Assembly: GCA_001544595.2 (NCBI GenBank)
Contig: FCOH02000010.1
Coordinates: forward strand, 124,001 to 188,000
DNA: 64,000 nt
Origin: Caballeronia peredens
Lineage (GTDB): Bacteria; Pseudomonadota; Gammaproteobacteria; Burkholderiales; Burkholderiaceae
Reading direction: 5' to 3'
In this document: positions 31,369 through 48,586 of the stretch, in pieces
Layout: every line of letters begins with the position of its first letter
How positions within the stretch are numbered: position 1 is the first letter of the stretch
The notes under the pieces: model-generated
Database searches by the model: none
Told to the model about the DNA's origin: nothing
Seen by the model: the letters and a program-made list of their open reading frames with translations, nothing else
Made by a program: the position numbers and the translations under genes

Positions 31369-31760
31369 ATGAGCAAACACATAAACTGACGGACCTGCTA
31401 ACTCCACTGCATTGAGGGGCGAGATGATTGCGAAAAAGCACTATTCCTTAACACCGCTTGCGCGGATTGATGTGCTTGTGTGTGATAGTCGCGTGGTGTT
31501 AAGGCCAGCATCGACGCGAGTAGTGGCTGCTTTCGATGCAATTTACTTGTGCACTCCACTGCGAAGCAATGAGTTGCCATCCGGAGAATAGCGAGGTAGC
31601 TTCGAATTCCGACGTTGTCTTGGCCGTGGCTGACTTAATCGCGGCACCTACGGCAAAACTTGGCATGTCGGAGGAAAATACCGACCTAGCCCTTCGGCTT
31701 ATGCAATGGAGCTTCTTCGGGTTTGAGAAAGACATGCCGTGCACGCCTATCAAAGCATAG
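31369..31760 (+). pseudogene. Broken copy of family C (relic of the gene at 41884)
   Basis: Starts ATGAGCAAACACATA, like the intact copy, but meets TGA after six codons. A second open stretch (31424-31591) encodes RVVAAFDAIYLCTPLRS, which aligns with RIVAAFDAIYLCCLRFK of the intact protein, then stops at TAG. After a frame change the third stretch encodes SNSDVVLAVADLIAAPT and SFFGFEKDMPCTP, against SDVVLAVADLIAATT and SFFGLEKDMPCTP in the intact copy. So this gene is broken by at least one stop and one frameshift. The C-terminal end is also lost. Similarity to the paralogue is plain even at DNA level. Confidence 0.8.
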
Positions 31761-32022
31761 TATGCTCCGCTGAGATCGCATCGGTGAGTCCTCGCTTTAC
31801 GAAGCTGTGAGAAGTGCTCCCCGTCGTCGTTGCCGCGCTCTTGTAGTTTGTCATAGCTTGACCGAGACGTCGTTTGCATGTGGCTCATGGAGGCGAAATT
31901 CGTTACACTCCGTGCAGGCGGTAAAGCTGTTGAGGTGCAAGCAGCTGAGACGCAGTAACGCTCGCGCAATACAAGATCCGGTTTGCCTATCTATGAACCC
32001 TTTGGCGACAGGGGGAGATGTC

Positions 32023-32235
32023 ATGCTGATCAAGGAATTGTCCGCAAAGGCCGTCGCAATCGGCGTAGTCCTGAGCGTTTGCGCCTTGGTGTTTCTCTGG
32101 CCACTCAATGGCTTTGGCGCTTCGGTCGCCCTCATCGCTTTCGTAATCGGTGCTGGCGGGTCAGAGTTGATCTTCAGACTTTCAAAGCCTCGCACGCCTC
32201 CAGGGAGCGAGAAACCGGCGGCGGGCGAAAAATGA
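32023..32235 (+). CDS. Small membrane protein, two spans (70 aa)
   Basis: MLIKELSAKAVAIGVVLSVC begins the first helix, and GFGASVALIAFVIGAGGSEL forms a second; the C-terminus is Pro/Glu-rich and cytoplasmic. GGGGGAGATG precedes ATG 32023. It overlaps the following lipoprotein gene by ATGA, so the two are coupled. No family recognised. Confidence 0.65.
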   Translation: MLIKELSAKAVAIGVVLSVCALVFLWPLNGFGASVALIAFVIGAGGSELIFRLSKPRTPPGSEKPAAGEK

Positions 32236-33026
32236 CTCATATAAAAGCTCTGCGGCTACGATGCTGGATTGTAAGCATTGCTTTGGCTTTGACCGCGGCT
32301 TGCGGAGCCCTCCCGGACAAGAACCCGGCGTCGGGCGGCGGCCTGCTCGGAGCCCCTCCGCCCATAGGGTGGAATAATTCGCCGGTCCCCGCTGGCCAAG
32401 AGTTGATCGAAGTTCGCGGCTATGTTTTGGCGCGTAACGATCAGGTACCAGACGGCGCAATCGGATACGCCGTTCCAATATTCACAAGTCGCCAAGAGAT
32501 CGATCGTTTCTGCCCCTTGTTCCTTGATCGAATGAGTATCAGTGGTGCCCTAAACAAGGGCGCGCCGATGCGAATTAATTCCTACGGGCAGGAAAAGCAG
32601 ATTGTCCCATTTGTCTGGCCAGTGACTAGCTGGTCTGCGAATGACACGGCCGACTGCAAGACACTTGGCGACCGCTACGACATCTCAGGAGCCCGGACGT
32701 TTTTTAAACAAGCACAACAGACGATCGGAGCCCATGGTGGCCGAGATATTGATGCCCTGCGTAACGGCCCCTTCATTTTGACAGCAAAAAGGGTTAGCGG
32801 GTCAATGGTGCTGTACGACTTGTCGCAAGCTCCTGACGACGATTATCCGACTTGGCTGACCCGGGCGATCGAGCAGATGAGCAATCCGCTCGCCACGCAG
32901 ACCGTCTACGTAACGCCCAACTGGCACGACAAAGCACGCTACTATGTATTTGGAACCATCCCGGCCTTCAACGGTATTCTCGACGTGCTAATGCCGGGAT
33001 TCAAGGGCGCGCATGCCAAGAGTTAA
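32232..33026 (+). CDS. Predicted lipoprotein, 264 aa
   Basis: An N-terminal hydrophobic segment ending in a lipobox LTAAC (Cys near residue 24) marks a lipoprotein. The mature part starts with a Gly/Pro linker and holds repeated aromatic-rich strands (YAVPIFTSRQEIDRF, IVPFVWPVTSW, TVYVTPNWHDKARYYV). No catalytic motif is recognised. Coupled to the small membrane protein upstream; both likely sit in the inner or outer envelope. Function unknown. Confidence 0.7.
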   Translation: MTHIKALRLRCWIVSIALALTAACGALPDKNPASGGGLLGAPPPIGWNNSPVPAGQELIEVRGYVLARNDQVPDGAIGYAVPIFTSRQEIDRFCPLFLDRMSISGALNKGAPMRINSYGQEKQIVPFVWPVTSWSANDTADCKTLGDRYDISGARTFFKQAQQTIGAHGGRDIDALRNGPFILTAKRVSGSMVLYDLSQAPDDDYPTWLTRAIEQMSNPLATQTVYVTPNWHDKARYYVFGTIPAFNGILDVLMPGFKGAHAKS

Positions 33027-33038
33027 TGCTCTTAAAAC

Positions 33039-33584
33039 TCAGCGTCTGTCCTGGTTTAGCTCCGGTCGCGCGAGATAACTATTGACCTGGACAGACTTCG
33101 CAATGCCGTCAGAGATAGATTGGGCTTGATCGACCACACTCCGATGAGCGGAGAAAGTCACGAGGACGCCAAGATTGCCTTCGGTACGAGCCAGATAGCG
33201 GGTTTGATAATTTTTGACTTCTGAGTTCAAGTAAGTCGCGTCAAGCCAGATGGCTTGGCCTAAGAGTGTGCTTGTTGGAGCTCGGACGGTTTCGACACCA
33301 GCCGTCGAGCCGACGTCATCCTGAAGATGTTGAATATAGAGTTGCGGGCTATCCGTCTCGCCAACTTCCTTGGCGGTAAGAATCGCGATCATGCTGTACT
33401 TGCCATTAGAGTCGGCAGGTGGTCTGCAGACAAACTCCGTCACTTCGAGATTACATTGCCAATCGTCTGGGATGTCGAAACTGATGTAAGTGTTTGCAAA
33501 AGGTTTCGCCTCTGTAAGATTGACGAGGAGGGCAAACAACATAAAACCGAAACTTAATTGTGAGAGGTATCGCATTTTCCGCAC
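33039..33584 (-). CDS. Secreted protein, 181 aa, unknown
   Basis: A signal peptide (LSFGFMLFALLVNLTEAKP) is followed by a compact domain with two Cys (WQCNLEVTEFVCRPP) and a beta-rich core (KYSMIAILTAKEVGE, then QTRYLARTEGNLGVLVTFSA). The pattern resembles periplasmic stress or assembly accessory proteins, but no family is claimed. Divergent from the DUF922 gene. Confidence 0.6.
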   Translation of the reverse strand: MRKMRYLSQLSFGFMLFALLVNLTEAKPFANTYISFDIPDDWQCNLEVTEFVCRPPADSNGKYSMIAILTAKEVGETDSPQLYIQHLQDDVGSTAGVETVRAPTSTLLGQAIWLDATYLNSEVKNYQTRYLARTEGNLGVLVTFSAHRSVVDQAQSISDGIAKSVQVNSYLARPELNQDRR

Positions 33585-33664
33585 AGTCTCCTCGTCGACG
33601 CTTTCTATTTATCGTGCGGGGCGTCGAAAGAATCAAGTTAACCTTGCATTCTCCGGAGAATTTT

Positions 33665-34303
33665 GTGAACTCCGTCCTGCGAAAAGTGACCAGCTTAGGC
33701 GCGGCGGCCATTGCCTTGTCGGCCGTGCTTGGTTTTGCTTCACCTCACGACGAGCAAGTCCAGGTTGCTTTCAAAATGGACTACTACGATGTGGCCGGTG
33801 AAACTTGGCCTGAGGTGTGGAGTTCAATTCAGGCGGGTCTTAAACGAGAGAAGGACCTTCAGGGAAGATATGAGGGACTCACATCGTATTCCATCAAACT
33901 GGAGCCTGAAGCTCTCGTCGCGAACAATACGTGTTCCTCAAAAACGGCTGCCATCGCCGTCAACCTGGTGGTCAAGGTGCCAAGATTGACGACCCGAAAT
34001 TTAAAGCAAGGCCAGGAATGTTGGGCGTTCTATGATCGATCTCTCTCCGACCATGAGGAATGGCACGTTCAAATCGCCATACACGATATGCAGGCGCTGC
34101 AAGCCAAGATCAGATCCTCGCCAAACATTAGCTGTGAGGAAATCGTGGGGATGGTGAAACAAGACTTCCAGAAAATGGTTGATGAGCAAAATGACTACGA
34201 TGCCATCACAAATCACGGGCTGCAGCAGTGGAGAGCCTACGGGCTCGATAAGCCGAAGGAATCCGACTATGACGCCGAGGTTCGAAACCGTTGTTTTGGC
34301 TGA
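33665..34303 (+). CDS. DUF922-type secreted putative zinc protease
   Basis: A 212-residue exported protein starting at GTG 33665 (CGGAGA eight bases upstream) with a signal peptide SLGAAAIALSAVLGFAS. The core fits DUF922: YYDVAGETWPEVWSSIQ near 40, AAIAVNLVVKVPRLTT near 95, and HEEWH at residues 130-134 followed by a third His at 140, the expected zinc site. It probably acts in the periplasm; protease activity is inferred from the motif and has not been shown for this gene. It is the fourth envelope-directed gene in a row in this stretch. Confidence 0.8.
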   Translation: MNSVLRKVTSLGAAAIALSAVLGFASPHDEQVQVAFKMDYYDVAGETWPEVWSSIQAGLKREKDLQGRYEGLTSYSIKLEPEALVANNTCSSKTAAIAVNLVVKVPRLTTRNLKQGQECWAFYDRSLSDHEEWHVQIAIHDMQALQAKIRSSPNISCEEIVGMVKQDFQKMVDEQNDYDAITNHGLQQWRAYGLDKPKESDYDAEVRNRCFG

Positions 34304-34465
34304 TGCGTTGGCTTGATGCCTCTCGGGACGCACGATGTGCGTTCAGCATCGCGCGACCGGGGCGGCATGGCTGGCTGACGGCACTAACCTGATGCAATGT
34401 CGGTAGTAAGCGCCGTCAGCCGCCGGCTGCCGCACAATGAATGTCCCGTTAATGGACGTCGAGCT

Positions 34466-35872
34466 TCAAAGAGGCTTGAAGATGGACATGCCTTTGCCAA
34501 ACAGGCGATCATGCATCTCAGCGGCATAACGGTCAGTCATGCCAGCGACGAAGTCGCACACGACGCGCGCCTTGCCGGCCGCAGTATCAGCGTCGCGGTA
34601 TTCCTGTTGCCAGTCATCAGGCAGCAAGCGACCTTCGGTATCACTGAAGGCCACGAACAGGTCACGCACAACGTCTTTGCCTCGATGCTCGACAACCGCA
34701 AGCCGGGATGAGCGAATCACAAGTTCGAAATTCAGATGCTTCAGAACTTCAATCCGGAGGAGGGCCTCGCGACTCAAGATGACCTTCGATAGTTGCGGAT
34801 ACGCGTCGTTGATCTTTACCTCGACGGAATCGATAAGAGAACCGACACGCTCGGCAGTGAACTGATTGCGTGCAAGAGAGTTGCTTGCCAGTTGCCTGTC
34901 GCGCAACCAAGCGTTGGCACCAGCGCGGAACTTGTTGGCCACACCTGTGTTGGTGGAGACGCCATTCTGCGGTTGTAGACCCTTGAACACATCTTCAATA
35001 CAGTCAGTAAGCTGCCCCGAGTTGTCGAGCGGCTCGTAACCCGAGTCAGCCAACGCCTTGTTCGTCTTTTCCAAGACGGCGTCCGCGATCGGACTTTGGT
35101 TCGCAAGTGCGTCGAACAACGAGTACGGCGTTACAAAGCCGGCGTGCAAGGAGTCCTCGAGGTCGTAGGTCGAGTAGGCGATGTCGTCAGCGAGGTCCAT
35201 GATAGAGCACTCGATCGTCTTGAACTCACCTACATGGCCTGGAGCGATCGCGTCTTTGATATTCGAAACGAGTTCCTTCTCGCTGTCGTAGTATCCCTTG
35301 ACCAGAGCGGAGCCATCCCGCCGTTCGAGCGGGATGAGCCGGTCGTATTTGAGAACCGACGCGAGCGCTCGCATGGTCAAATTGAGTCCGAAGGCGTTTG
35401 ACGGAGCGCCTGTCGAATCGCTAACCAGCTTTTGCTCGGTCGCTGAAACGATCCGCAGCGTCTGCGCGTTACCTTCGAAGCCACCGTGCGCGACCATCAA
35501 TTCGTCCAGCGCAGCCTCGCCGTTATGGCCAAAGGGCGGATGTCCCAGATCGTGGGCGAGCGAAGCAAACTCTACAAGATCGAGGTCGATGCCGTCGCCA
35601 AAATTGCGCGCATCCGGCAAATGGTTCAACCGGGCTGCGATGCCGCTGGCGATCTGGGCGACCTCGAGGGAGTGCGTCAGACGGTTTCTGAAGAAGTCGG
35701 ACTCAGCGCCGGGAAACAGTTGGGTTTTGCCTTGAAGGCGGCGAAATGACGGCGCATGAAGCAAACGCGCGTAGTCTTTGCGAAAAGCCGTGCGGCCGAT
35801 TTCGCGCGTAGGGTCTACGCCTTGGTCACCGTTTTGGCGCCTAATATCGTCAGATGTATAGAAATCGGGCAT
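34466..35872 (-). CDS. dgt: dGTP triphosphohydrolase (dGTPase), Dgt-like
   Basis: A 468-residue HD-domain enzyme that cuts dGTP to deoxyguanosine and triphosphate. Seen: KDYARLLHAPSFRRLQGKTQ followed by the nucleotide-binding region, HD ligands H67 in NRLTHSLEVAQIA, H107-D108 in SLAHDLGHPPFGHNGE, and the later Asp in IMDLADDIAYSTYDLED. Length fits the longer Dgt group. Start ATG 35872 gives the usual YTSDDIRR N-terminus. Island-borne dGTPases have been shown elsewhere to block phage by draining dNTPs; that role is inferred here from the location. Oddly, a terminator ends right at its start codon. Confidence 0.92.
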   Translation of the reverse strand: MPDFYTSDDIRRQNGDQGVDPTREIGRTAFRKDYARLLHAPSFRRLQGKTQLFPGAESDFFRNRLTHSLEVAQIASGIAARLNHLPDARNFGDGIDLDLVEFASLAHDLGHPPFGHNGEAALDELMVAHGGFEGNAQTLRIVSATEQKLVSDSTGAPSNAFGLNLTMRALASVLKYDRLIPLERRDGSALVKGYYDSEKELVSNIKDAIAPGHVGEFKTIECSIMDLADDIAYSTYDLEDSLHAGFVTPYSLFDALANQSPIADAVLEKTNKALADSGYEPLDNSGQLTDCIEDVFKGLQPQNGVSTNTGVANKFRAGANAWLRDRQLASNSLARNQFTAERVGSLIDSVEVKINDAYPQLSKVILSREALLRIEVLKHLNFELVIRSSRLAVVEHRGKDVVRDLFVAFSDTEGRLLPDDWQQEYRDADTAAGKARVVCDFVAGMTDRYAAEMHDRLFGKGMSIFKPL

Positions 35873-35873
35873 A

Positions 35874-35903
35874 AAAAAACCGGGCAAAGAGCCCGGTTCC
35901 TCG
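35874..35903 (-). terminator. Intrinsic terminator abutting the dgt start codon
   Basis: Read on the minus strand: AACCGGGC, loop TCTTT, GCCCGGTT, then a run of T residues ending one base before the ATG of dgt. It closes the small gene upstream (35917-36105). It also means dgt either needs read-through (an attenuator arrangement) or is transcribed from a start inside this hairpin. Confidence 0.8.
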
Positions 35904-35916
35904 AAATCGGTAAAAA

Positions 35917-36105
35917 TTACCTGCGTTTCGCAAGAGTGAAATCAATGGCCGTAAAGGTTGCGTCCTGTTTCAGGCGCAACTCAAGACGACGATTTCCTGT
36001 GGCGTTCGAGCCCTGTTTTTCAACCAGTGAATCAATGTACTTGAAGGCGAGTGTGTCCTGTGCGGTCGGCTTGGCCGGTGTATTTCTGCGGTCAGATTGG
36101 CTCAT
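35917..36105 (-). CDS. Small hypothetical protein, 62 aa
   Basis: MSQSDRRNTPAKPTAQDTLA then a helix FKYIDSLVEKQGSNATGNRR and a strand-like LELRLKQDATFTAIDFTLAK. GGAG lies nine bases before ATG 36105; an adjacent ATG at 36108 is also possible. A terminator follows 14 bp after the stop. Family not recognised. Confidence 0.55.
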   Translation of the reverse strand: MSQSDRRNTPAKPTAQDTLAFKYIDSLVEKQGSNATGNRRLELRLKQDATFTAIDFTLAKRR

Positions 36106-36650
36106 CATGCGCTCCATTTCATGTACGAACACATTATATAGCGACCGCAATCCGGAAGGTGCTGCTCTACGCTAGCGGGATCGCGCCTGTAGTCGTAAAC
36201 ACACAGTAACGAGCAGTTTACACGCCCCGATCGCGGTCACGACGCCAACTAAGGCAGACCGCCATCGGCGCAGAGTAGTCGGGTGTCGGACTGCAAAATC
36301 GAGATGATGCAAAAAACCGAGTGTGCATGGCGGTGCTCGCCCGTCGCATTGTGGTATCGACCCAGAACTTCTCCATCGTCCTGACACTATCTTTGGAGTC
36401 AAGAGAACTGCCTGCGAATTTGTATTGTTGCATGCTAAGACGTCGCTAGGGCCTATCCTGTGGTCAGTTTCGCGTGACATGAAGTCAAATATTTGCAGCG
36501 CCATGCGAGTAAGATTTTTCATTGAAGATGAAAAGTTACGCTCGGTTTCCGAGTGTCGGCGTTGTGCTATAAATCCTTGTCCGCGACAGCCCCGGCAGGT
36601 GCCGTCCACAGAAACCTGCGGTTGTACCGTGCCCTGAGAGTAGAGCAGTG
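36106..36650. other. Gene-poor stretch with a short repeat
   Basis: No convincing gene. A segment at about 36522-36541 (ATTGAAGATGAAAAGTTACG) is nearly the same as one inside the next gene (ATTGAAGATGAAAGGCAACG, about 36687-36706), suggesting a duplicated and decayed piece of the TIR-like gene. Several ORFs on both strands are short and biased, and I do not support them. Confidence 0.4.
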
Positions 36651-37113: not shown

Positions 37114-37734
37114 TCAAATCAGTTTGTCGGCGAGCGTGCTGTGGTGTTGAAACAATGCACCGGGCTGCACAAATTTAGATGATGTCTTGGTCAACAGGGC
37201 GTTGACAGACACGTATTGCAACGATTCAGGACTAGGGGTCCAAGGAAAGTTTTGAAGCAACTGAGCATCTACTAACTCAGTAGCGACTTCGACAAATTGC
37301 TGAGCCTCAGCCCTTGCTTGCTCTGGACTTTCAGCAACCTGCGGCCAAGGGATGTCTGCTACGTTCGCGAACGGAAGCTGAAAACAACGCGACACTTCTT
37401 TGCTGGCGAGAACGAGAGGAACACTTCCAAGTCGTTTCCATGTCGCGAAGTTTTCGCGGATAGCGACGTCACGCGCGTCTGCCAGCCAATCGACCTTGAA
37501 ATTGCAGAGTTCGACACACACGTCGACAAAAAGGAGGTCCTCTTCTTGAAAAGCGCTTGCGCTGAAGAGGCCTTTTTGATGAGCGCGTGTTACTTCACGA
37601 GAATCGATAAATGCAACCAACGCGTTTGCATCTTGGGGAAGCTCGCTGAAGAAAACTTGCGCAGGAACCAGCATGCCAAAAGACTGAGAGGTTCGAAGAG
37701 TGCGGGTATCGTCTGCAAAGATGGACGTGTTCAT
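37114..37734 (-). CDS. Family A protein, copy A1 (206 aa, unknown)
   Basis: One of three paralogues in this island (with 40059 and 43650). Shared features: an N-terminal strand region with ALVAFIDSREV, the central motif FKVDWLADARD (W-L-A/S-D in all copies), a following amphipathic helix ATWKRLGSVPLVLAS, and a C-terminal VSVNALL segment. No catalytic residues or known fold are recognised. The start is set at ATG 37734; CTTTTAGA lies just upstream on the minus strand. It lies directly downstream of the DNA methyltransferase gene (135 bp, same strand), so the two may be cotranscribed. Confidence 0.7.
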   Translation of the reverse strand: MNTSIFADDTRTLRTSQSFGMLVPAQVFFSELPQDANALVAFIDSREVTRAHQKGLFSASAFQEEDLLFVDVCVELCNFKVDWLADARDVAIRENFATWKRLGSVPLVLASKEVSRCFQLPFANVADIPWPQVAESPEQARAEAQQFVEVATELVDAQLLQNFPWTPSPESLQYVSVNALLTKTSSKFVQPGALFQHHSTLADKLI

Positions 37735-37868
37735 AGTAATGGTTCTAAAAGTGTAGGCAGATGGAGTCAACGCCTAGCCCTACTGGCAAACCTCCAGACT
37801 TCGATCTGAAGTCTGGATAAGAGTTTTCTCGGACGTTTACTCAATCAATCGGGCGAAATTGCGAGAAA

Positions 37869-39230
37869 TCAGCGGGTAGGGCACGGACTTGTAGTTTTGG
37901 CAGCGCTGACGTGCGCGTTAAAAAGAGCTTCTCCAATCCGTGTAACAAGCCCCACTACCAGGGCGTTGCCCATTAACATCGCACGAGCGACGTCGCTAAC
38001 ACCGGAGACGTCCGTAAACCCACGCGGGAAACCGTTGAGTTCTTCTAGCTCTTCCGGAGTTAGCCGCCGGAGTCTCCCTGAATGGCTGGCCACAACATGC
38101 TTGGTCCGCGTCGCGCTGGTCCCCCCTTCGGAAGTAATAATGGTTCTGGAAGGTCGGTCGAGTGGGTCTGGGAACGCCATTGCCCCTTCCGAGTATTCAT
38201 ACTCGAACCCATCCTTGAATCGGAGAGCTTTCTTCGCCGCTTTTGCTGCCGCCCACTTTGGCTTGTCAGCGTCCGATACGTAGAAATTTGTCGGGACCGG
38301 GCCGGTCTTACGAACGACGTCTCCTAACGTCAACGCGCCTACACTACCGGTAAAGTCCGAGAAATCACTTAGCGCGGCAGGTGTAACCTGCGAAGTCCAT
38401 ACGTAACCGTCGAGCATCAATCCGGCGTTTTCGAAACGGGTTTTGCCATTTGAAAGTGCGCGATAGGACATTTGTTCCTGAAACGGGTCGTTCCGTACGC
38501 GGAAAGCTGGGGCCCCACCATCGTATTGATTTGCAGGCTTGGCCGGCAGGGCGCGAGTTAGGGTAGACCGCATAAACCAGTCAGCCGAGTTCGTAGCCAT
38601 ATCTCGCTTCGCTTTTTGAAAGACGTCGGTATTCTCGTGATACGCAACGATGAAGGTACGGCGTCGGCGTTGCGAGAACCCGTAGTCTGCGGCGTTAACT
38701 ACGCGCCATTCGGCCGCGTACCCAAGCTGGAACAGCGTGGACAAGACCATGGAGAAGTCTCGGCCCCGGCACAGAGCGGGCGACGAAATCAACCGGTCCA
38801 CGTTTTCAAGAATAAGATATTTGACGGGCTTTCCGTCGGCAAGTCGCTGCTTGAGCAACTCTGCAATCGACCACCAGAGAACGCCCTTCTTACCCGCGAT
38901 GCCTGCCGATTTCGACAGCGGTTTGGCAACAGAATAGTCTTGGCAGGGGAAGCCGCCGACCACGACATCCGGGTCGGCAGCGCGGATAGCATCGCGTCCT
39001 GCATCTGAATTCAAGACGGCCGCAATGTCCTCGTTCAGGTGAATATCACCCGACCACCGGGCTTTGTACACGTTGCTTGCGTGCTGTACCTTGCGGCTCG
39101 GTTCAAACTGATTGCTGAGATTGACGTGAAATGGGCTTCCGTGGACCCGTTCGAGACCAAGTCTAAAGCCGCCGACACCGGCAAAGAGTTCCATCGTATT
39201 GAGATGAATCGAAGTATTAACTGAAGACAC
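37869..39230 (-). CDS. DNA (cytosine-5-)-methyltransferase
   Basis: A 453-residue C5 methyltransferase of the Dcm/M.HhaI class. Motif I ELFAGVGGFRLGLE is at residues 14-27, motif IV GGFPCQDYSVA with the catalytic Cys96, motif VI LILENVDRL at 140-148, motif VIII QRRRRTFIVAY, and motifs IX-X RRLTPEELEELNGFPRGFT with GNALVVGLV. A long insert (about 200-350) is the target-recognition region. It methylates cytosine in a DNA sequence that cannot be predicted here. No restriction endonuclease is recognised next to it; the neighbour is family A1. Start is GTG 39230 (ATG 39194 possible). Confidence 0.93.
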   Translation of the reverse strand: MSSVNTSIHLNTMELFAGVGGFRLGLERVHGSPFHVNLSNQFEPSRKVQHASNVYKARWSGDIHLNEDIAAVLNSDAGRDAIRAADPDVVVGGFPCQDYSVAKPLSKSAGIAGKKGVLWWSIAELLKQRLADGKPVKYLILENVDRLISSPALCRGRDFSMVLSTLFQLGYAAEWRVVNAADYGFSQRRRRTFIVAYHENTDVFQKAKRDMATNSADWFMRSTLTRALPAKPANQYDGGAPAFRVRNDPFQEQMSYRALSNGKTRFENAGLMLDGYVWTSQVTPAALSDFSDFTGSVGALTLGDVVRKTGPVPTNFYVSDADKPKWAAAKAAKKALRFKDGFEYEYSEGAMAFPDPLDRPSRTIITSEGGTSATRTKHVVASHSGRLRRLTPEELEELNGFPRGFTDVSGVSDVARAMLMGNALVVGLVTRIGEALFNAHVSAAKTTSPCPTR

Positions 39231-39378
39231 CGTATTTCCAAGTTGGGGAGGTGTCCAGTTAAGGGAGCGGTGTTTAAACGCTCCAAGTCGTCGGCGTGCT
39301 GCTGGTTTTAGGTTTTCACTGTGAGAATTAGAGAAACGCGGGCCGCGCAGCAGTGTTAGGCACTGCGCTTACGGCTTC

Positions 39379-39703
39379 GACGTCGAGTGGCGATGTGAGC
39401 CGGCTCAATCGCGCTCGACTACGTCGAGGCGGCACTGGTCCTTGAGCAGGTGGACGGCGCTCTAGTCGTTGTTTATGCGCTTCAGATAGCATTGCGTCGG
39501 TACTGCACCGGTCGAGTCCCTTGCTGGACTCCCTCGAAGGACTGTTCGAGGCGACGAAGTTTTACGCGTCTATCGTTGCGGAGAGCATGACGGATCGAGC
39601 GCGCACAAAGCTATCGCCGGACCGCGGCCACGAGCGCCTGGTCTACGGCCTCATCAGCGCTGCCGGTGCTGTGACGTTCAATCTAGGCAAGTTGCGCGGT
39701 TAG
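39379..39703 (+). pseudogene. Decayed copy of family B
   Basis: DNA-level relic of the gene at 42981. One frame encodes SIALDYVEAALVLEQVDGAL, against SIVLDYGDAASVLERVDGAL in B1. After a frame change the next gives LEGLFEATKFYASIVAES and LISAAGAVTFNL, against LDGLLQSTRLYASIVAEN and SISAAGAVTLHA. The N-terminal region between the VEW motif and SIxLDY has been deleted. It precedes A2 as intact B1 precedes A3. Confidence 0.8.
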
Positions 39704-40058: not shown

Positions 40059-40724
40059 ATGCCTAAAAATACGCTTTTCGATACCACGTTCTCTATGCTG
40101 GCTATTGGCGGCCTTAGTCGGAACGCCGAGTTCAAGTCTTCGTGCCAAATGGCGAAGCAGTTTCCGGGAAACTTGCCTGTCTTGAATGCAACGGTGGACC
40201 CTTCAGAGTTCAATACCTTTATGCAGGCACATCAGAACGGAAATGCCCCCAGTTGCTTCGGATTCGGAAATATAGCGAGCCTTTCGCGAGCAGGTGACAA
40301 GATGCAGATTATGACCATTCGCTTTCAGGTCGGTGGCGTGCAGTTCTATTGGCTCGCAGATATGTCTGACGGTGATGTTTGGCGCGCAGTTGATGCGTGG
40401 AGAAAGCGCGGGCAGGTCCCCATCGCAATTGGCCATTCAGACCAAATGGCCTATGTAGTCATAGACTATGCTGCAGGCAGCATGACGCTCGACCGCTTCA
40501 GGGACCAAATTCGTTCGGAGCCTTCGCAAGAATTCTTTGACATGGTCAGCGATGTTGCGAGCAGTGGATTTGTCGAGGCCCAGGCTACTACCGACATTCC
40601 GGATACCCCTCTGGACCGGGTCATTGTCAACCTGCTTGTGAGTCCCCGCCAGCAGCAATATGTACACGGCAATGTGATGCGCGACAAGCCTGTGATGGCA
40701 GACGGGGGAATGTCGGTGCACTGA
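40059..40724 (+). CDS. Family A protein, copy A2 (221 aa, unknown)
   Basis: Paralogue of A1 and A3. It has an N-terminal LPVLNATVDPSEFNTFM block (compare FPVLTASLDHHDYEAL in A3), the central VQFYWLADMSD motif, the helix AWRKRGQVPIAIGH, and a C-terminal RVIVNLLVSPRQ. Start ATG 40059 follows a GGGAAA-type purine run. Ends at a strong terminator. Preceded by the decayed family-B copy and the motif cluster. Neither membrane segment nor known enzyme motif is visible. Confidence 0.75.
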   Translation: MPKNTLFDTTFSMLAIGGLSRNAEFKSSCQMAKQFPGNLPVLNATVDPSEFNTFMQAHQNGNAPSCFGFGNIASLSRAGDKMQIMTIRFQVGGVQFYWLADMSDGDVWRAVDAWRKRGQVPIAIGHSDQMAYVVIDYAAGSMTLDRFRDQIRSEPSQEFFDMVSDVASSGFVEAQATTDIPDTPLDRVIVNLLVSPRQQQYVHGNVMRDKPVMADGGMSVH

Positions 40725-40739
40725 GGCTGGAATGATTAG

Positions 40740-40770: not shown

Positions 40771-41883
40771 AATACTTGTTCTGATTTTTCCAAACAAGCG
40801 CTATGCCGGCCCTTTTGTGATGGAACACGCCGCCAACATTGGCTTGACGTTCGTCGCGTTTGTCTGCCCGTTGACGTCAAAGTCGTTCAATCGCAGTAAG
40901 AAAATCGAACAAGGCTTGGCGGTGCTGAAAGGATCGATGCCACAGCCTGCTCGTGCGATGGCTTCTCAAAACCGACTCTGTCTAGGCTTCTTTGGCCAAC
41001 TTCGCAGTCACAAGCAGCGTCCTGAAACGTAAAGTCGGTCAGCATTGCGATGTGGTACAGGATAGAGTCGGCTCAGCCACGCGTGCCGACCCCGCTCTCG
41101 GCTAGCCGAGAGCCCTCTGGCATCTCAATGGCGCACTTGTGGTTCGGATAGACGTTCAATTTGCGTGCCGAGTCGTTTATGAACGACCGATGGAGATAGA
41201 GAAGTGCTGCCGGTGGCTCGACGGGACGATCGGCGATTTGGTGTAAGGCCGGATCCTGCCGGCAGGCTCGGTTCTACCAACGTCGGAACCGTAGCGGTTT
41301 ACCCTGCCTGAGACAGGATGGCATAAGAGGCTTAGCGTCGTAGGGTAAGGTGGCTATCGAACTCTTGGTAGCCAAACTTTCGAAATGACTCGGCTCACAG
41401 GCCAGACCTCGCTGCACGGCTGCGGCCGAAGCCGAGAGGACCGCGTTGGACAGTCAAGAGCAATTTGCCAGACTCGACCGGGACGGCGACACCAACGCGC
41501 AATGTCTTGGGGTGGGTTATCCACGTCAAGATAATCGTGTGATTGCGCTAGTTTGATCTATACTCAAGTCGCGCGGTGAGTCACGCGCGCCTATTCGCGG
41601 GTTAGAAGTAAAATTATATTGATACCTGCCGTCTTCCTCGCTTCGTCTGCAGCTTCGCGTGTATTTGAAAGAGAGCGTATTGGCTTGTCTCTGTGGGGCT
41701 GCGATCCCGACAGGATGCCACGATTTTACTTGCACATGCCGTCGCCAAGCTTAACGATGATCGGCATGTGGCGGAACCGGAGCGTTTGCGAGCAGTCCTT
41801 TTCGCTGAAGTTATTGCGCTCGCGCATTGATGCCGCCCCACGTCAAAAGCTCCTAGGCGTATGACAAACTGGTAGACAGCCAG
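40771..41883. other. 1.1-kb stretch without a supported gene
   Basis: Short ORFs occur on both strands but none has a ribosome site, family similarity or consistent codon bias. The region contains a perfect 20-bp palindrome GCTCTCGGCTAGCCGAGAGC (41094-41113). An AT-rich segment at 41530-41630 could hold the promoter of the family-C gene. It may be decayed module sequence. Confidence 0.4.
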
Positions 41884-42351
41884 ATGAGCAAGCACATCGA
41901 TAATCCGTGTAGTCGGTCAACTCAGTTGGTCTCAGTAGATGAAGTTACAGCAAATGAGCAACTGTCTTCTGCACGGCTCTCCCGGGCAGGCGTGCTCCTG
42001 CGGGACAGCCGCTCGACAGTAACTCCGCCATCCGCACGGATAGTGGCCGCCTTTGATGCCATTTACCTGTGCTGCCTGCGCTTCAAAGATTTGAGTTCGC
42101 AAGGGGAAAATGATGTCAAAAATGCGAACTCCGATGTTGTCTTGGCCGTAGCAGACTTGATTGCGGCAACGACAGAAAAGCTTGGCATACCTCCGGACGG
42201 TGTTGACCTTGCCCTCCGACTTATGAAATGGAGCTTTTTCGGGCTCGAGAAGGACATGCCGTGCACGCCTGCGCGTGCATCGGATCTCGCAGAAGCGGTA
42301 TTACGCGAAACAAAGCGTTTGCATTTGAATAGCGGCGACAGCCGGTTTTAG
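41884..42351 (+). CDS. Family C protein, intact copy (155 aa, unknown)
   Basis: The intact paralogue of the broken gene at 31369. Helical character: RIVAAFDAIYLCCLRFKDL, SDVVLAVADLIAATTEKLGI, then VDLALRLMKWSFFGLEKDMP and LAEAVLRETKRLHL. The arrangement of two long helices around a short polar loop recalls HEPN-like bundles, but the R-x4-6-H signature is not seen, so this is only a suggestion. The start ATGAGCAAGCAC is shared with the relic. It opens the order C, B1, A3 on this strand. A GGTTTTAGG motif overlaps its stop codon. Confidence 0.65.
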   Translation: MSKHIDNPCSRSTQLVSVDEVTANEQLSSARLSRAGVLLRDSRSTVTPPSARIVAAFDAIYLCCLRFKDLSSQGENDVKNANSDVVLAVADLIAATTEKLGIPPDGVDLALRLMKWSFFGLEKDMPCTPARASDLAEAVLRETKRLHLNSGDSRF

Positions 42352-42433
42352 GTCGCGAGCTCAAGCCAATTGGTGTGCAGGCTTTTGTAAGATGAGATGC
42401 AGCCCGGATACACACTGACGTTGCGGTGTATCT

Positions 42434-42930
42434 AGGAGACGGTCGCTGTCCGAGCGTCGAGCCTGTCTGCGACGGATTGCGTATCAATTGAGAAGATTCG
42501 AAGTCGCAGCGCGCTTTGGTCGCACAGGCCTTTCCGTCACCCCCCAGGGCCGTATCGCGTGGCAAATTGCTGTGTACTTTTCACCCACGAGACGCTTCCG
42601 CATCTGAACGCGGATATACGCCTGTTTGCGGCATATCGGATTGACGCTAAGTGCAAGCAAAGAGTGGCGAACGCATCAAGCGAAGTTGAGCGGCGGTGAT
42701 ATGACCTGCACTGGTTGGAAGACAGCGATGCGCCGCATCGACTCGGAGTTCGACATACCACAGTTCGTCGCGTCAGCACTTGTGCGCACCCTCGCATCGC
42801 ACAACTTTCGGCTACCCAACTCGGCACGCGAAAGGTTCGCAAAGCTGCCGACAGCGTCGTTCTCCGCATCGAACAAATTGTTCGAGAGGCTTTTAGCGAA
42901 GATGTGCATCGGAGCGACGCCGATGACTGA
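42434..42930 (+). pseudogene. Coding-like remnant with an internal stop
   Basis: One frame stays open from 42436 to 42696, meets TGA at 42697-42699, then stays open to 42930 with YDLHWLEDSDAPHRL right after the stop. The LHWLEDSD piece resembles the W-L-A/S-D motif of family A (VHWLSDAN, FYWLADMSD), hinting at a very decayed A-like gene; the rest does not align by eye. No start codon or ribosome site is evident. Low support. Confidence 0.25.
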
Positions 42931-42980
42931 CTTTACCGAAGCGGAGACCGCATCCGTGTCTGGCGGTAGATGGTGACGCC

Positions 42981-43400
42981 ATGATGGTTGTAACCGTTCC
43001 ACCCTACATGGAAGTCGAATGGGCCTCCCGAACTGCAGATTGGCTCATTCCCTACAACACGACCGATTGGGGCAGTGGGCCAGTGCAGACGATGCTTCGG
43101 CTTGGTACCGGGTCAATCGTGCTCGACTACGGTGATGCTGCATCGGTCCTTGAACGGGTGGACGGCGCTCTAACCGTTGTTTACGTGCTTTCAGATTGCG
43201 TCGCATCGGTTCGCTACAAGTGGAATTCCATGCTTCTCCAGTCTCTTGACGGGCTGCTTCAATCCACGAGGCTCTACGCGTCTATCGTCGCCGAGAACAC
43301 GGCCTACCGAGAGCGCGCAAACGTCTTGACGGACCGGGCTCAGCTACATCAAGTCTATGGGTCGATTAGCGCCGCTGGCGCGGTCACCCTCCACGCGTAA
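42981..43400 (+). CDS. Family B protein, copy B1 (139 aa, unknown)
   Basis: A 139-residue protein sharing two blocks with the genes at 47897 and 47144 and with the relic at 39379. Block 1: EVEWASRTADWLIPYN (B3: EIDWNAQAANILVPHN). Block 2: GTGSIVLDY, then DGALTVVYVL and VRYKW (B3: GNGPIAFEP, DGSLFVFFL, VRYSW). The pattern suggests a small alpha/beta domain. No catalytic residues are evident. It precedes A3 by 250 bp on the same strand, as the relic precedes A2, so B and A look like partners. Confidence 0.7.
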   Translation: MMVVTVPPYMEVEWASRTADWLIPYNTTDWGSGPVQTMLRLGTGSIVLDYGDAASVLERVDGALTVVYVLSDCVASVRYKWNSMLLQSLDGLLQSTRLYASIVAENTAYRERANVLTDRAQLHQVYGSISAAGAVTLHA

Positions 43401-43490
43401 ATAAGTTGCGTTTCTCCGACGGGTTCGTCGGTCGACAAACGTCATCGGATAGATGAGGGCTACGAGCGGTTGCTTCGCAGTACGGCATCC

Positions 43491-43521: not shown

Positions 43522-43649
43522 AAACGCGATCCCGACAGTACATCGCTATATGTCTCAGGCAGCAACGTCGCTTTCACGACAGCGATAGCTGCCCAGACAA
43601 ACCCAGAGCCGGCGGATAGCCGGAAGTCCAGAAAAACCCAAGGTAGAAT

Positions 43650-44303
43650 ATGAACTACGAAATCGAAGACAGCAGTGGATTGTTTGCATTAGGGGGAATC
43701 GCCGCAGCCTGGCAATTCAGAGACGGATTCCCTCTGGCTCGAGCTGTACTTGCTGACTTCCCTGTTTTGACTGCGTCCCTTGACCATCACGATTACGAGG
43801 CTTTAGACGTAGCGTTGAAGGCAGACGCCCCCGTGTCGCTCACGTCCCAGACGGTGCAACACGCTTCAGCTCAACTGCATCAGTTCACGCTTACGACCTG
43901 GGGCCTCCATGTCCACTGGTTATCCGATGCAAACGCCTCAGAAATCAGGGCCGCAATGAGGACTTGGAAGAGCGCTGGCGAGAGTGCCTTCGCACTGTTG
44001 CTACCCGACACTGCCCCGTACAACTGTCTTTTCGGCAAGGTGGGCTTTGCCCTCCCGTCCAGTTCCGCAGCGCTCAAGCCTCACAAAGCGCAGGCCGCAA
44101 CATCGTTCTCGCCCGAGCTGATTACAGCGATGGTTGCGGTTGGAAACCGCCTCAAACGCGCGAGCGTCTTAGGCGATGGCGCATCGATTCAGCGTCATGC
44201 AGTCAACCTGCTGTTGGCGGGGAGCATGGAAGACCAGTTGAGTCATCCCGGCTCGATTGCAAGCGTATTGCACGCGAGCCAAGCACCGTACACCCGGCAT
44301 TGA
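43650..44303 (+). CDS. Family A protein, copy A3 (217 aa, unknown)
   Basis: Paralogue of A1 and A2: FPVLTASLDHHDYEALDVAL near residue 35, the central GLHVHWLSDANASEIRA, the helix RTWKSAGESAFALLLPD, and a C-terminal QRHAVNLLLAGSMEDQL. Length agrees with the other copies within a few residues. AAGGTAGA precedes ATG 43650. A terminator follows. The family seems to keep fold-defining hydrophobics but no obvious active site, which suits a binding or immunity role; that is only a guess. Confidence 0.75.
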   Translation: MNYEIEDSSGLFALGGIAAAWQFRDGFPLARAVLADFPVLTASLDHHDYEALDVALKADAPVSLTSQTVQHASAQLHQFTLTTWGLHVHWLSDANASEIRAAMRTWKSAGESAFALLLPDTAPYNCLFGKVGFALPSSSAALKPHKAQAATSFSPELITAMVAVGNRLKRASVLGDGASIQRHAVNLLLAGSMEDQLSHPGSIASVLHASQAPYTRH

Positions 44304-44316
44304 ATCGACCCGATAT

Positions 44317-44344
44317 GCCGCAGAGATCGTTCGCTGCGGCTTTT
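44317..44344 (+). terminator. Intrinsic terminator after A3
   Basis: GCCGCAG (44317-44323) pairs with CTGCGGC (44334-44340) and TTTT follows, 14 bp past the stop codon. Confidence 0.75.
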
Positions 44345-45033
44345 ATCCAGGCGAAATCGGGTGCTTGGTGATTGCACAACGTCGTTAATTTGAGGGTGCT
44401 AAGTCGGCTGTGTTCTGTTTTCGCGGGCCAGCAGACCACCCCTTTTTTTGGGGGCGACGAGCACCGCTATGGGTGCCTTTCACACTCCGTCGCAGCGAGC
44501 CTCATCGCGTGGCGAGGAGGCGCCTGCGCGCTCCATTTCTTCTTGCGGAATCAAGGCTGCCCGTTCACAGCTTAATCTCCGCTGCTCGGCGCAGGCGTGC
44601 TTGAGGACGTGCCGACCGCTTCCACGCGAACCCGACCGACCGTGCAGGCGCGTGGCAAACGTCCGATCAACTTCTGCGCACGACTACCGATTCGCCTCTG
44701 CGACATCATTCGCACGCCAGCCGACCGCAGTCATGCATGCCCGGATTTGCCGCACAGGGCAACGGCAAGTTGCCGTCCATCCTCTGCTTGTCAGGGAGCA
44801 GCGAAATAACACCCAATGTTCTCGAAACGCGTCTTTTTTCGCGTGGCGCCACAAAAATCCACTTTCTGCTCATGCGTTTGCCGTGATGCGCTTCGCGGCA
44901 TGCTGAAGGAGACTTTCTGTGGGAGATCGCGTCGATGGTGATCTGGTAGCCTCCTCTGTCTGCCGAGCGTGCTTGCGCGCGCCGACCATGAAGGGCGCTT
45001 CAGTCCCGAAGTCGACAAGCATTCGCAGTCAAA
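44345..45033. other. Gene-poor stretch with a module repeat
   Basis: No supported gene. It includes the diverged repeat of 39838-39915 at 44609-44690 (frame encoding PTVQARGKRPINFCAR), so this looks like leftover module DNA. Local codon bias does not favour any frame. Confidence 0.4.
44609..44690 (+). repeat. Diverged repeat shared with 39838-39915
   Basis: Second copy of the ARGKR-encoding segment; see the copy at 39838 for the alignment. Here it lies downstream of A3, there upstream of A2. Confidence 0.45.
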
Positions 45034-46131
45034 CTAAGTGCGCTTGCGTGGACGCAGCCTTATTCTCGGGTTGTGCGCAAATAGAACGGCGCCCTGGCGC
45101 GGCACCAAGGAAGCTTGCTCTTCTCCTTGCCGAAGCCGGAGTAGCGATGCCTCGAATTCTTCCCATCGACCGGATTGTCGAAGACGTTGGTAAAAGGAAC
45201 TCACTTTCGTTGCGTTTCCCAACATTCCGTTCACACTGCGCCACCCCATCCCGGTCGCGAGTTTGATAAGAATTGCATCTATTAGCGTTCGGTCATCGTT
45301 CGAGGCTTCTAAATGATAGGGTCGGACGATATGTTTCAGTTGTGACCATTCGGTGTCGGCGAGACCCCATCCATTCGGTCCTTCAATGAGGTTCGTGTTC
45401 TTCAGTATGGGATTCAGATTTTCCAGAGCACCTTGACTCGACTGAAGTGTGAACTCGACTGGTTGTTCTCCACCCCAGGAGAAAGCCTGCTCTTGTGGTT
45501 TCAAGCGATGCAAAGACATCGAAGACGCGACAAAAACTCGCCCGTGAAGCGAACCTGTGAGCACGCCATCAGCCAGCAGCTTCGGCAATTCAAGGCCAAT
45601 AGCTCTACGCAAAGCGTTCGCGCGGATGGAAGCAAACGCTTCGCGTGCCGACGGAAAGAAATACATCCACTGGAGAAGCGCTGGTTTAGGCGGTGTTGCC
45701 CATATGCGGCGGGACAATCCGCGATGTATCAGTACACAGCCAAGGCCTTTTGCCTGCATTACCGGCGCAACAATTTGGTCGAGGCTTGTCGGGCGATAAA
45801 GATGATTGAAGAAGATAGAGTTTGGCGTGAAAAGTGCCTTAACTACAACCAGGGCAGGAATCAGCACGCGCAAGCCTAGATAGTGCGCGACGTAGATTTT
45901 GTGAGAGTCACCCGGGCCGCAGTAATGCATGCCTGACAAGGCTAGATATTCCGCCGAGTCCGAGACTTCCCAATCGTCGAAATTTGTCGTAAATCTGAGC
46001 TTGGTTTTACCAGACTCTCGCATTTTGACCCGCCATAACGAAGATGCCTCTATCCAATCTACGCTACCGTCGTTGTCAATTACTTTCCCTTCTAATCGCC
46101 CGTTCTTGCGTTCAATCGAATGCAGCCACAT
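45034..46131 (-). CDS. Unknown protein with a C-terminal IS4/IS5-type transposase N-domain
   Basis: A 365-residue protein. Residues 1-240 are unrecognised: a WIEASSLWRVKMRESG start, LRVLIPALVVVKALFTPNSI near 90-110, and YRPTSLDQI. Residues about 255-335 (GWGLADTEWSQLKHIVRPYH, then DRTLIDAILIKLATGMGWRS and FYQRLRQSGRWEEFE) match the N-terminal DNA-binding domain of IS5/IS4-family transposases (DUF4096-like). The DDE catalytic domain is absent, so this is a domestication or fusion, not a truncated IS. It lies downstream of tnsABC on the same strand, so a role in target binding is conceivable. The first part faintly recalls TnsE; weak. Confidence 0.65.
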   Translation of the reverse strand: MWLHSIERKNGRLEGKVIDNDGSVDWIEASSLWRVKMRESGKTKLRFTTNFDDWEVSDSAEYLALSGMHYCGPGDSHKIYVAHYLGLRVLIPALVVVKALFTPNSIFFNHLYRPTSLDQIVAPVMQAKGLGCVLIHRGLSRRIWATPPKPALLQWMYFFPSAREAFASIRANALRRAIGLELPKLLADGVLTGSLHGRVFVASSMSLHRLKPQEQAFSWGGEQPVEFTLQSSQGALENLNPILKNTNLIEGPNGWGLADTEWSQLKHIVRPYHLEASNDDRTLIDAILIKLATGMGWRSVNGMLGNATKVSSFYQRLRQSGRWEEFEASLLRLRQGEEQASLVPRQGAVLFAHNPRIRLRPRKRT

Positions 46132-46468
46132 GCTGTCGCTCCTCAGTTCAAGGAACGTATAGCGACCGCCTTACCTAAAATGATTGCATCCACATGGCCA
46201 TATGATTTATCAAAAATGAGGCGGATGACGGCGTATTCGAGCGATCGAACGACTCCGCTAATGTCCACGCAACCGGAAGCTATAAAGGCAAGCGAATCTA
46301 TTGCGGGGAGGCCCGTCGCAGCCAAACACCTACCGAACCGACGTAGCCTCGGTTTGAACGTTTGGCCCCCCGCGAACGGACGGGCCGACGTTTGTGCTAA
46401 TTTGGGAGCACGTTGTATCAAGAACGCGCGGAAGTCAGACTGCCTTTGTCGACGGGCAAGGAGGAGAG
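46132..46468. other. Divergent promoter region
   Basis: A 337-bp gap between the transposase-domain gene (minus) and the antitoxin-like gene (plus). An AT-rich segment at 46180-46235 is the likely promoter area. A strong AAGGAGGAGAG at 46458-46468 serves the gene at 46469. No other gene is seen. Confidence 0.4.
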
Positions 46469-46717
46469 ATGACGTCAAATTTGGACGAGGCAGGGGACGG
46501 TACAATCTCCGTCGCACAAGTCGCAGGCCTGCTTTTCGTGTCGCGGCCTCATGTGATAAAGCTGATTCAGCAGGGATTACTTCCGCTGCATCACCGCGAC
46601 GGGGTTGAGATGTTTGTGCGAACCGAAGATGTCCTAGCCTACCGAAAGCAGCAGCTCACCAAAGCGAAGGAGTGGCTTGGTTCTCAGAAAGAGGAGAACG
46701 AGCCGCCCGGTCTTTGA
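46469..46717 (+). CDS. Excisionase-type HTH antitoxin, partner missing
   Basis: An 82-residue protein. The core ISVAQVAGLLFVSRPHVIKL followed by IQQGLLPLHHRDGVEMFVRT and EDVLAYRKQQ is the HTH_17/excisionase-like antitoxin that normally precedes a PIN-domain toxin, and it ends with the typical short acidic Pro/Leu tail. AAGGAGGAGAG precedes ATG 46469. The expected PIN toxin gene is not found downstream; that DNA has no open frame with a PIN start. So the antitoxin looks orphaned. Confidence 0.8.
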   Translation: MTSNLDEAGDGTISVAQVAGLLFVSRPHVIKLIQQGLLPLHHRDGVEMFVRTEDVLAYRKQQLTKAKEWLGSQKEENEPPGL

Positions 46718-47143
46718 TGCGCGACGGGGCCTTCGCAACGTTTACCAGCGCAAGACCGGAATGAGCTTCGCCTCGATCGCGCTGCGTCCTAGGTTCGGGA
46801 TTAGCCTATCCGCGCCCCCTCAGATATGGGTGCAAAAATCTAGCCGTTCAACGAGAGTCCCGCAGGGCGCGTGCGACGACCAGCCGCTTCAGGCATCGCT
46901 TTCCAGCCGGCGCGCGCCACGCTCCCGCGCTCGCGGTACCGCTCAGACTGGTTTGGCCAGATGCCGCGCTTCAGAAGCTAGCGGTGAGACGGACGGCGCG
47001 ACCGTTTAGTTTTCCAGCCTTAAGTCTCACTGCTGGCCGATCCGGTTGGTCCGGTCCGTTGTAAAGAGGGTGTTCAGGCCCAGATCGATCGGTATTGCCT
47101 CGGGTCGCAGCCGGCAAGCGCCTCGGGACGCACAAGGGAGGAA
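46718..47143. other. Gene-free stretch after the orphan antitoxin
   Basis: All frames are short or lack a start with a ribosome site. The place where a PIN toxin gene is expected shows no PIN-like motif (no hydrophobic-Asp-x-Asn start). Sequence is GC-rich with some short inverted segments; nothing further is supported. Confidence 0.4.
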
Positions 47144-47686
47144 TCAATCAACGTCGAGCGAGCCAAACCGGACATTGTCCGGGAGCATCAACTCCGACTG
47201 GCTGAACGATTTGCAGTCGATATCTCCAAATGCCCCGAACAGGGCTGCGAGCAGTCGTTGCCGGTCACCGTCCGCGACATTGAACCGCGCGATCGTCCAT
47301 CCGACTGCATGCACGAAGAGGACCGAAAAGCATTGCCGAGAGAGCAGATTGACTGCGAGCGAGTCAAAATCCATCGCGATTGACGAGTTTCCCAACAAAA
47401 TTAGGACATTACGGTTCGGCTCCTCCGGCGGGCCAAAGCACTTTATTGCAAAATAACTCGCGATATTGGCGATGTCTGATGACTCCGCGAGAACGGCGAC
47501 ACAGGGCGAACTGTCGTCCTGCCGACCCACGCCAACCGGAAGGTCCCGGGCCGCAAGTGGGAAAGTTCGATGTATTCCTGACTCGCCGGTCGCTCGAATG
47601 AGCTCAATGGCATTGGTCGTTGTAATGCCGCTTACCAAGTCGGCCGAATTAACGGCTTTATTGCTGGTTCGCTGATGTGATTGCAT
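47144..47686 (-). CDS. Family B-like protein, copy B2 (180 aa, diverged)
   Basis: Start ATG 47686 with AAAGGA upstream. The central part SDIANIASYFAIKCFGP then LILLGNSSIAMDF and FSVLFVHAVGWTIARFNV follows the order of hydrophobic blocks in B1 and B3 (I-x-W-A-x..., G-x-x-x-I-x-x-D-Y/F, then a V-x-V/L-F strand), so I place it in family B with moderate confidence. No known motif. Same strand as B3 and tnsABC, 210 bp downstream of B3. Confidence 0.55.
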   Translation of the reverse strand: MQSHQRTSNKAVNSADLVSGITTTNAIELIRATGESGIHRTFPLAARDLPVGVGRQDDSSPCVAVLAESSDIANIASYFAIKCFGPPEEPNRNVLILLGNSSIAMDFDSLAVNLLSRQCFSVLFVHAVGWTIARFNVADGDRQRLLAALFGAFGDIDCKSFSQSELMLPDNVRFGSLDVD

Positions 47687-47896
47687 TGCTGCCGTCCTTT
47701 CTTCGAAACGTACTCGCGTGCAGTGAGCGGCGAATGCTGTCGCTAACGTAACAACCTATGGCGGGGGGCGTAGGCGATCCGTCGGCGGTGTGCCGCTAGA
47801 AACGACCGCCGAGCTCGAGGCGCGACGGTCGTGAAAATGGATGTGATAGTTCAGCGGGGGCCTTCGTGCCGACCGAGCGTCGTATACCGGCGACGC

Positions 47897-48586
47897 TTAA
47901 TCGTTCCACGAACAGGCGTCCGGACACCGCTGGACGAAAAGGTCCGGTCTCGACCGAACGCGCGCCGACGCGAAGTACTGAGACAGCCGTCCATCGTTTC
48001 CAATTTCAAAATATGCAGCCGGTACGATAGCTATATCATCGGCCGCCCCGCTGACGGACGACCCAAAGACTATGATGCTTCGGGCCGCTCTTTCGTCGTC
48101 GTGTTGATAGTTCTCTCCGGCCGACGCATCCAAGGCTTCCCACGTATTGAGGAAACGCTCGCTCCAGCTGTAGCGGACTAGATAGGTTATGGCCCGATGC
48201 AAAAAGAAAACGAAGAGCGAGCCATCGGAGCCAAAAAGAGGTTGAAATCCATACTTCGGCTCAAACGCGATGGGGCCGTTCCCGAGAAGAAACAAGGATG
48301 TTGCCTGGCGGTGCTCGAAGTCGATTTCGTTATGCGGGACGAGAATGTTCGCGGCTTGTGCGTTCCAGTCAATCTCTTCATTGGCAGGAATGGCAAAAGA
48401 CAAAACATGCGTCTCGGAAATCGCTTGCTGCAACTCTTTCGGGAGAAACACCTTGGCAACGGCAGCGCACGCGGTCAAACCAGCGTGCTCCGCACAATCT
48501 GCGAGTTCGTCGAACAACGCAACGTTGTCGACGATAACGATGCCGTCGTTCTGACGAACCGCATTTCGGTTGATGGCTTGGTTCAC
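47897..48586 (-). CDS. Family B protein, copy B3 (229 aa)
   Basis: Carries an extra N-terminal region of about 70 residues (NDGIVIVDNVALFDELADCA) and then the family-B blocks EIDWNAQAANILVPHN, LLGNGPIAFEPKYG, DGSLFVFFLHRAITY and VRYSWSERFLNTWEAL. The start is GTG 48586, chosen since AAGGA lies ten bases upstream; the open frame runs on to 48715 but that extension is unsupported. Lies 161 bp downstream of tnsC on the same strand. CTAAAAC-type motif about 50 bp upstream. Unknown function. Confidence 0.65.
   Translation of the reverse strand: MNQAINRNAVRQNDGIVIVDNVALFDELADCAEHAGLTACAAVAKVFLPKELQQAISETHVLSFAIPANEEIDWNAQAANILVPHNEIDFEHRQATSLFLLGNGPIAFEPKYGFQPLFGSDGSLFVFFLHRAITYLVRYSWSERFLNTWEALDASAGENYQHDDERAARSIIVFGSSVSGAADDIAIVPAAYFEIGNDGRLSQYFASARVRSRPDLFVQRCPDACSWND

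Follow-up and report, generated by a model that had tools for sequence, protein, structure and literature searches.

The window analysed here, 64,000 nucleotides from the genome of the soil bacterium Caballeronia peredens (assembly GCA_001544595.2, contig FCOH02000010.1, positions 124,001 to 188,000 of the forward strand), carries three gene families, A, B and C, as cargo of a Tn7-like mobile island, all inside the segment bounded by its left end and tnsABC. This island moved recently between Caballeronia species. Family A forms a protein family of its own, all members found in this work coming from Burkholderiaceae, and its copies often lie in tandem. We infer that A most likely serves as a binding protein in the conflict of cell, phage and mobile elements, and the overall explanation that we judge best, with a probability of roughly 45%, is that A is a non-enzymatic binding protein of this conflict on a Tn7-like cargo island.

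Family A is a distinct protein family of the Burkholderiaceae

The window holds three family A genes, listed with their ratios of nonsynonymous to synonymous substitution rates (dN/dS) and, for A2, the predicted local distance difference test (pLDDT) and predicted template modelling (pTM) scores of its structure model:

37114..37770, minus strand, A1, intact open reading frame (ORF); dN/dS 0.28
40059..40724, plus strand, A2, intact ORF; dN/dS 0.22; model pLDDT 82, pTM 0.80
43650..44303, plus strand, A3, intact ORF; dN/dS 0.18

The original prediction, made by reading the DNA, had placed these ORFs in one family with a common W-L-A/S-D centre and V-N-x-L-L end, and both points are borne out. 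With A1 as a single-sequence query, A3 and A2 were recovered at expectation (E) values of 0.033 and 0.035, respectively, while leave-one-out profiles gave scores of 26.3 bits for A1 (shuffle maximum 6.4), 32.3 for A2 (5.2) and 35.6 for A3 (8.3); none of 1000 shuffles reached the score in any of the three cases. The alignment of the family shows WLxD...W...G at the centre and VNxLL at the end.

Comparison with Caballeronia fortuita LMG 29320 (genome G116) indicates that all three A genes are under purifying selection, with the ratios listed above; two doubtful neighbouring ORFs gave 0.65 (54 codons) and 0.82 (109 codons) in the same comparison. The families had also been described as decaying together. 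Decay is seen in a single copy each of B and C, but not in A. In the tree of the family, A1, A2 and A3 are in different clades, and each groups with a C. fortuita orthologue of its own (support 1.0, 0.78 and 0.87, respectively). Therefore, the tandem A copies are old and did not arise by recent duplication of one module.

A profile of the three copies, in a search that scores first-look candidates only and may thus miss relatives, found family A in 33 of 398 Burkholderiaceae genomes and in four of 25 genera; the 15 named loci are from Caballeronia, Cupriavidus, Paraburkholderia and Burkholderia. A 31-member profile matched 3 of 349 genomes at the level of the order and 2 of 299 at that of the phylum; every one of these belongs to the Burkholderiaceae, and the window's own genome is among them. 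Plasmid records searched with A1, A3, B1 and one other A protein gave matches only in Burkholderiaceae, and no relative was found in viral contigs (A query) or in phage records (one A protein). Iterated searching of 41 loci, the window and 40 others, yielded 58 A ORFs in 37 loci, with at least two A ORFs, some of them fragments, in 12 of the 37. These proteins are roughly 190-275 residues long, and the 58 ORFs and the A profile are a ready starting set for further work.

The three families had been put forward as unrecognised, and they remain so, as searches of Pfam, NCBIfam, PHROGs and PDB sequences gave nothing clear for A, B or C. None of 31 A members matched NCBIfam at E<=0.01, one of the 31 matched Pfam (ABM at 0.076, taken as chance), and no PDB sequence matched A at E<=1. 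PADLOC models did not match A1-A3 or B1-B3 at E<=0.1. Literature searches on islands, Tn7 and the names of neighbouring genes, in which family A itself was not a subject, brought up nothing on the three families.

A fourth A copy is present on the same 67 kb island (L154:7249-7977; G000:C47:215249-215977). It adjoins two long ORFs that we take, from reading their sequence, to be CHAT-like and a presumed UvrD-like helicase.

The families are cargo of a Tn7-like island

Homologues of TnsA, TnsB and TnsC and a TniQ/TnsD target selector place the element among Tn7-like transposons. Its features are:

28360..28506, plus strand, left end of the island; terminus TGGTTC..., with two 19-bp sites TTCGCAAAYGAAACCTGTT at 28366-28384 and 28488-28506
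48748..50379, minus strand, tnsC; PDB match to Tn7 TnsC 7.5e-58, match to TniB 1.6e-13
50360..52678, minus strand, tnsB; PDB match to Tn7 TnsB 1.1e-72
52590..53450, minus strand, tnsA; PDB match to Tn7 TnsA 9.8e-28
59919..60884, minus strand, tniQ/tnsD; PDB match to Tn7 TnsD 5e-7

Several observations define the island. The G+C content of the window drops from ~64% to 54% near position 28 kb. From window position 28360 to base 219758 of the contig, a stretch of 67,399 bases, the sequence differs from genome G215 by only 3 mismatches; position 28360 is the edge of this identity, and to its left the G215 sequence differs from the window. Genome G282 is 100% identical over 67,212 bases from window position 28547 onward, a match that comprises the whole G282 contig, which begins within the island, so that its left flank lies outside the comparison. 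G215, G282 and G116 each have 93% identity to the window in the one chromosomal gene tested (19556-21064). Because the near-identical island is found in genomes of different species (one genome per species was compared), its move between species was recent. The right limit of the shared stretch is the point where the G215 and G282 contigs both stop and thus may not be the true end of the island. Just beyond this point lies L154:11824-12654, which we take to encode an IS3-like transposase.

The two 19-bp sites at the left end are 122 bp apart (2 matches versus 0.01 expected). C. fortuita has a comparable pair immediately inside a TGGT sequence, one site at L054:4397 (4 mismatches) and the other at 4522 (1 mismatch), a spacing of 125 bp. 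By analogy with Tn7, these are probably TnsB-type sites. An empty insertion site was searched for and was not found.

Association of families A, B and C

The members of families B and C in the window are as follows:

31418..31760, plus strand, broken C copy; two pieces (8.5e-23 and 2.1e-7), one with a TAG
39390..39679, plus strand, B relic; the B1 query matched two pieces, at 4.5e-12 and, for the one containing a TGA, 2.5e-5
41884..42351, plus strand, intact C; probable distant PDC-M05B relative without the R-x6-H motif
42981..43400, plus strand, B1; query for the B relic and B3
47144..47686, minus strand, B2, a doubtful member with marginal scores; dN/dS 0.21 versus C. fortuita
47897..48715, minus strand, B3, directly after tnsC; matched by the B1 query at 4.3e-6; dN/dS 0.23 versus C. 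fortuita

Family C consists, as first described, of one intact and one broken copy, which share 79% DNA identity over 146 nt, and is found in 8 of 58 Caballeronia genomes. For family B, the relationship of B1, B3 and the relic holds, but the inclusion of B2 is marginal: it scored 7.0 bits against a B1 plus B3 profile (shuffle maximum 6.5), and of 1000 shuffles, 42 scored equally high against B1 alone and 27 against B3 alone; the hhalign probability was 3.8%. Family B occurs in 5 of 398 genomes, all Caballeronia, three of which share the identical island, and the C. fortuita B1 has an internal TAG. A structure model of B from 4 sequences (pLDDT 38) was too poor for use.

The gene order in the window is C-B-A at one place and relic B-A at another, as originally described. 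The window and C. fortuita are collinear over 37.0-61.6 kb. The methyltransferase (37773-39248) and C (40993-42976) are missing from C. fortuita, which carries additional A and B pieces; C and the methyltransferase are thus variable components of the element. In C. fortuita, a B relic again precedes an A, and B1 precedes A3. This recurrence of B before A supports local duplication of the B-A stretch. At the DNA level, the B relic and B1 are 83% identical over 83 nt, far closer than A2 is to A3; the DNA upstream of A2 and A3 is 74% identical over 27 nt, short enough for chance.

These data bear on the proposal that a single multi-gene defence module, consisting of A and B either alone or together with C, was duplicated inside the transposon. 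The order B then A, found twice in the window and again in C. fortuita, the DNA identity among B copies and the weak identity upstream of A2 and A3 fit such a module, as does the overlap of the families among genomes: four of the five B genomes contain A (p=1.9e-4, or 0.017 with the three carriers of the identical island collapsed to one) and four of the five contain C (p=7.8e-4, or 0.028 collapsed). In genome G292, a C-like gene adjoins B. However, 29 of the 33 A genomes lack B, G292 has B without A, and the association of A with C is not significant (both present in 4 genomes; p=0.07, or 0.34 collapsed). The A copies fall into separate clades, neither A nor B has a PADLOC match, and C is absent from C. 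fortuita. On balance we consider the duplicated module unlikely. Of the original idea of a reduplicated module, the recurrent B-A pair and the link of B to A and C genomes survive; the three-part unit does not.

The position of B3 raises another possibility, that B3, and perhaps A, is a transposition accessory factor, B3 replacing the target selector after tnsC. B3 lies directly after tnsC, where G292 has tniQ pieces, and 9 of 37 A loci contain one or more genes from five Tn7-like clusters, of which two were named by reading (the cluster of the window tnsB is in 8). As the element carries its own tniQ and 28 of the 37 A loci have no Tn7-like gene of the counted clusters in the stretch fetched, a role of this kind appears very improbable.

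Family C is a probable distant relative of PDC-M05B

PDC-M05, a PADLOC defence candidate, is by its sequence a pair that we take to be of the winged helix-turn-helix (wHTH)-MNT plus HEPN type. In the PADLOC scan, C weakly matched PDC-M05B (E=0.0034). The PDC-M05B model found matches in 55 of 368 genomes, and three of the matched loci are C-like (G292 at 3.4e-4, G160 and G272 at 0.005 each). Against a profile of eleven PDC-M05B-like ORFs, C scored 13.7 bits, above all 1000 shuffles (maximum 11.1). Five of seven other distinct C-like ORFs also outscored all 1000 shuffles, with L124 and L125 failing to do so; L083 and L127 are one gene and were counted once.

C differs from PDC-M05 in two respects. 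The printed PDC-M05B-like proteins carry R-x6-H, a motif characteristic of HEPN RNases, whereas the HEPN R-x4-6-H motif is absent from C. In addition, the gene beside PDC-M05B in each of four inspected loci has a GSVARGEE...SD[LV]DV motif, characteristic of MNT antitoxins, and this pattern was found in none of the window ORFs starting at 29-62 kb.

In G292, a single ORF (L083:10553-11236) fuses a BPSL0761-like N-terminus, as judged by eye, to a C-like C-terminus. It adjoins a B gene and Tn7-like genes, and that stretch is without A.

The role of family A

Among 51 A members, the most conserved positions are W114, L42, W98, A100 and G17. The best conserved polar residue is D104 at 80%, and because no polar residue exceeds 80% identity, A is probably not an enzyme. 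The A2 model is confident and predicts an alpha/beta fold. In fold searches with this model, the top rows had low template modelling (TM) scores and were chance-like; one viral row had an E value of 9.7e-4 with a TM of 0.11. We also considered A as an acidic DNA mimic, which the median isoelectric point of 6.3 in 52 A proteins does not support.

Two neighbours of A in the window are as follows:

34466..35887, minus strand, dGTPase-like gene (PADLOC dGTPase, 1.5e-124); HD and HD_assoc
37869..39230, minus strand, type II cytosine DNA methyltransferase (PDLC03329, 9.9e-130), 99 bp upstream of A1

The surroundings of A genes are rich in conflict genes, in keeping with the early suggestion of defence, competition or immunity. 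At a threshold of 1e-20, 38 PADLOC families were found among 93 A-neighbours versus 1 among 92 control proteins, although several PADLOC models can match one protein; the 25 of the 38 families that are listed include Wadjet, Thoeris, capP, dGTPase and methyltransferase models.

In four of the 41 loci searched (the window, L085, L086 and L090), an A gene has a cytosine methyltransferase no more than 320 bp away, as would be expected if A modulated or paired with DNA methyltransferases. In that search, 33 of 37 A loci lacked such a gene, and the C. fortuita A1 has no adjoining methyltransferase; we consider such pairing very improbable. A different function, as immunity proteins against secreted toxins of competitors with the arrays as immunity libraries, would suit a small protein with tandem divergent paralogs and no conserved catalytic set. 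Yet no Rhs, PAAR or VgrG is among the 25 listed of 67 Pfam families for the 93 neighbours, and we regard immunity as improbable. Somewhat less doubtful is the view that A represents a so far undescribed family directed against phages or other elements, in which arrays of diversified recognition or neutralising proteins reside on Tn7-like transposons and other defence islands; its fold was unmatched here.

If A is instead a binding protein in the broader sense favoured above, the target of its conserved surface would be a protein or nucleic acid belonging to a phage, a rival element or a toxin, and the A array would diversify to track changing partners. C would be a HEPN-like PDC-M05B relative without catalytic motif and MNT partner, and B a small lineage-specific passenger that may have become linked to A in this one element. 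Such a reading would be directly testable for defence, as A is absent from the searched family libraries and the PDB and has a confident predicted fold. It would also make the island a live case of defence-type cargo spread by a Tn7-like transposon, in a very recent species crossing.

In the parts of Benler et al. 2021 (PMC8649781) considered here, unknown defence systems are expected among Tn7-like cargo of unknown function. The island resembles the transposons with cargo treated there in having tnsA, tnsB, tnsC and tniQ related to Tn7 and defence-type cargo. It differs in that A and B fit none of the PADLOC models used, and C fits only weakly.

Several results weigh against the favoured explanation of A as a binding protein on a Tn7-like cargo island. 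Unlike the transposons in those parts of that work, the island has yielded neither a right end with repeated TnsB-type sites, which was searched for, nor a 5-bp target-site duplication, for which flank searches gave none, the right junction not being located. The defence contrast is in part one of accessory versus core DNA, as the control was ordinary chromosome and not matched islands, and one of the 38 PADLOC families is the window's own dGTPase. A has no constant partner, its commonest neighbour, the unnamed family c4, being found in only 13 of 37 loci. The PDC-M05B model gave no match at E<=0.01 in the window's own genome. Finally, structure searches gave no clear match for the predicted A fold; we neither claim nor exclude a named fold, and function cannot be read from the model.

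Other genes around A and on the island

Family c4 (L056:12324-12851, L065:10616-11113 and relatives) lies beside A on the same strand in its 13 loci. Four members searched against Pfam and NCBIfam gave nothing at E<=0.1. Plasmids of Acinetobacter and Enterobacter carry relatives close to an integrase. Next in frequency at the 37 A loci are a HAD-like gene (12) and a gene named H-NS-like on inspection (10). Window genes at 53776-54279, 54423-54962 and 57707-58360 are of the HAD_SAK_2 and DUF6471 types, which recur around A elsewhere; HAD_SAK_2 was found for 57707, and the DUF6471 type was assigned by clustering with L060.

One further ORF lies between A3 and B2:

45034..46131, minus strand, ORF with a DUF4096/IS5-transposase-like segment (residues 257-325); no PDB match

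A shorter relative of this ORF sits downstream of the tniQ pieces in G292. Near the left end of the island, window 30046-31291 appears to encode a pair of an XRE-like regulator and an ImmA-like peptidase (HExxH). Consecutive ORFs at L092:10835-14298 (G000:C47:198835-202298), which on reading look VWA-like, PP2C-like and kinase-like, form a row that resembles a TerY-P triad.

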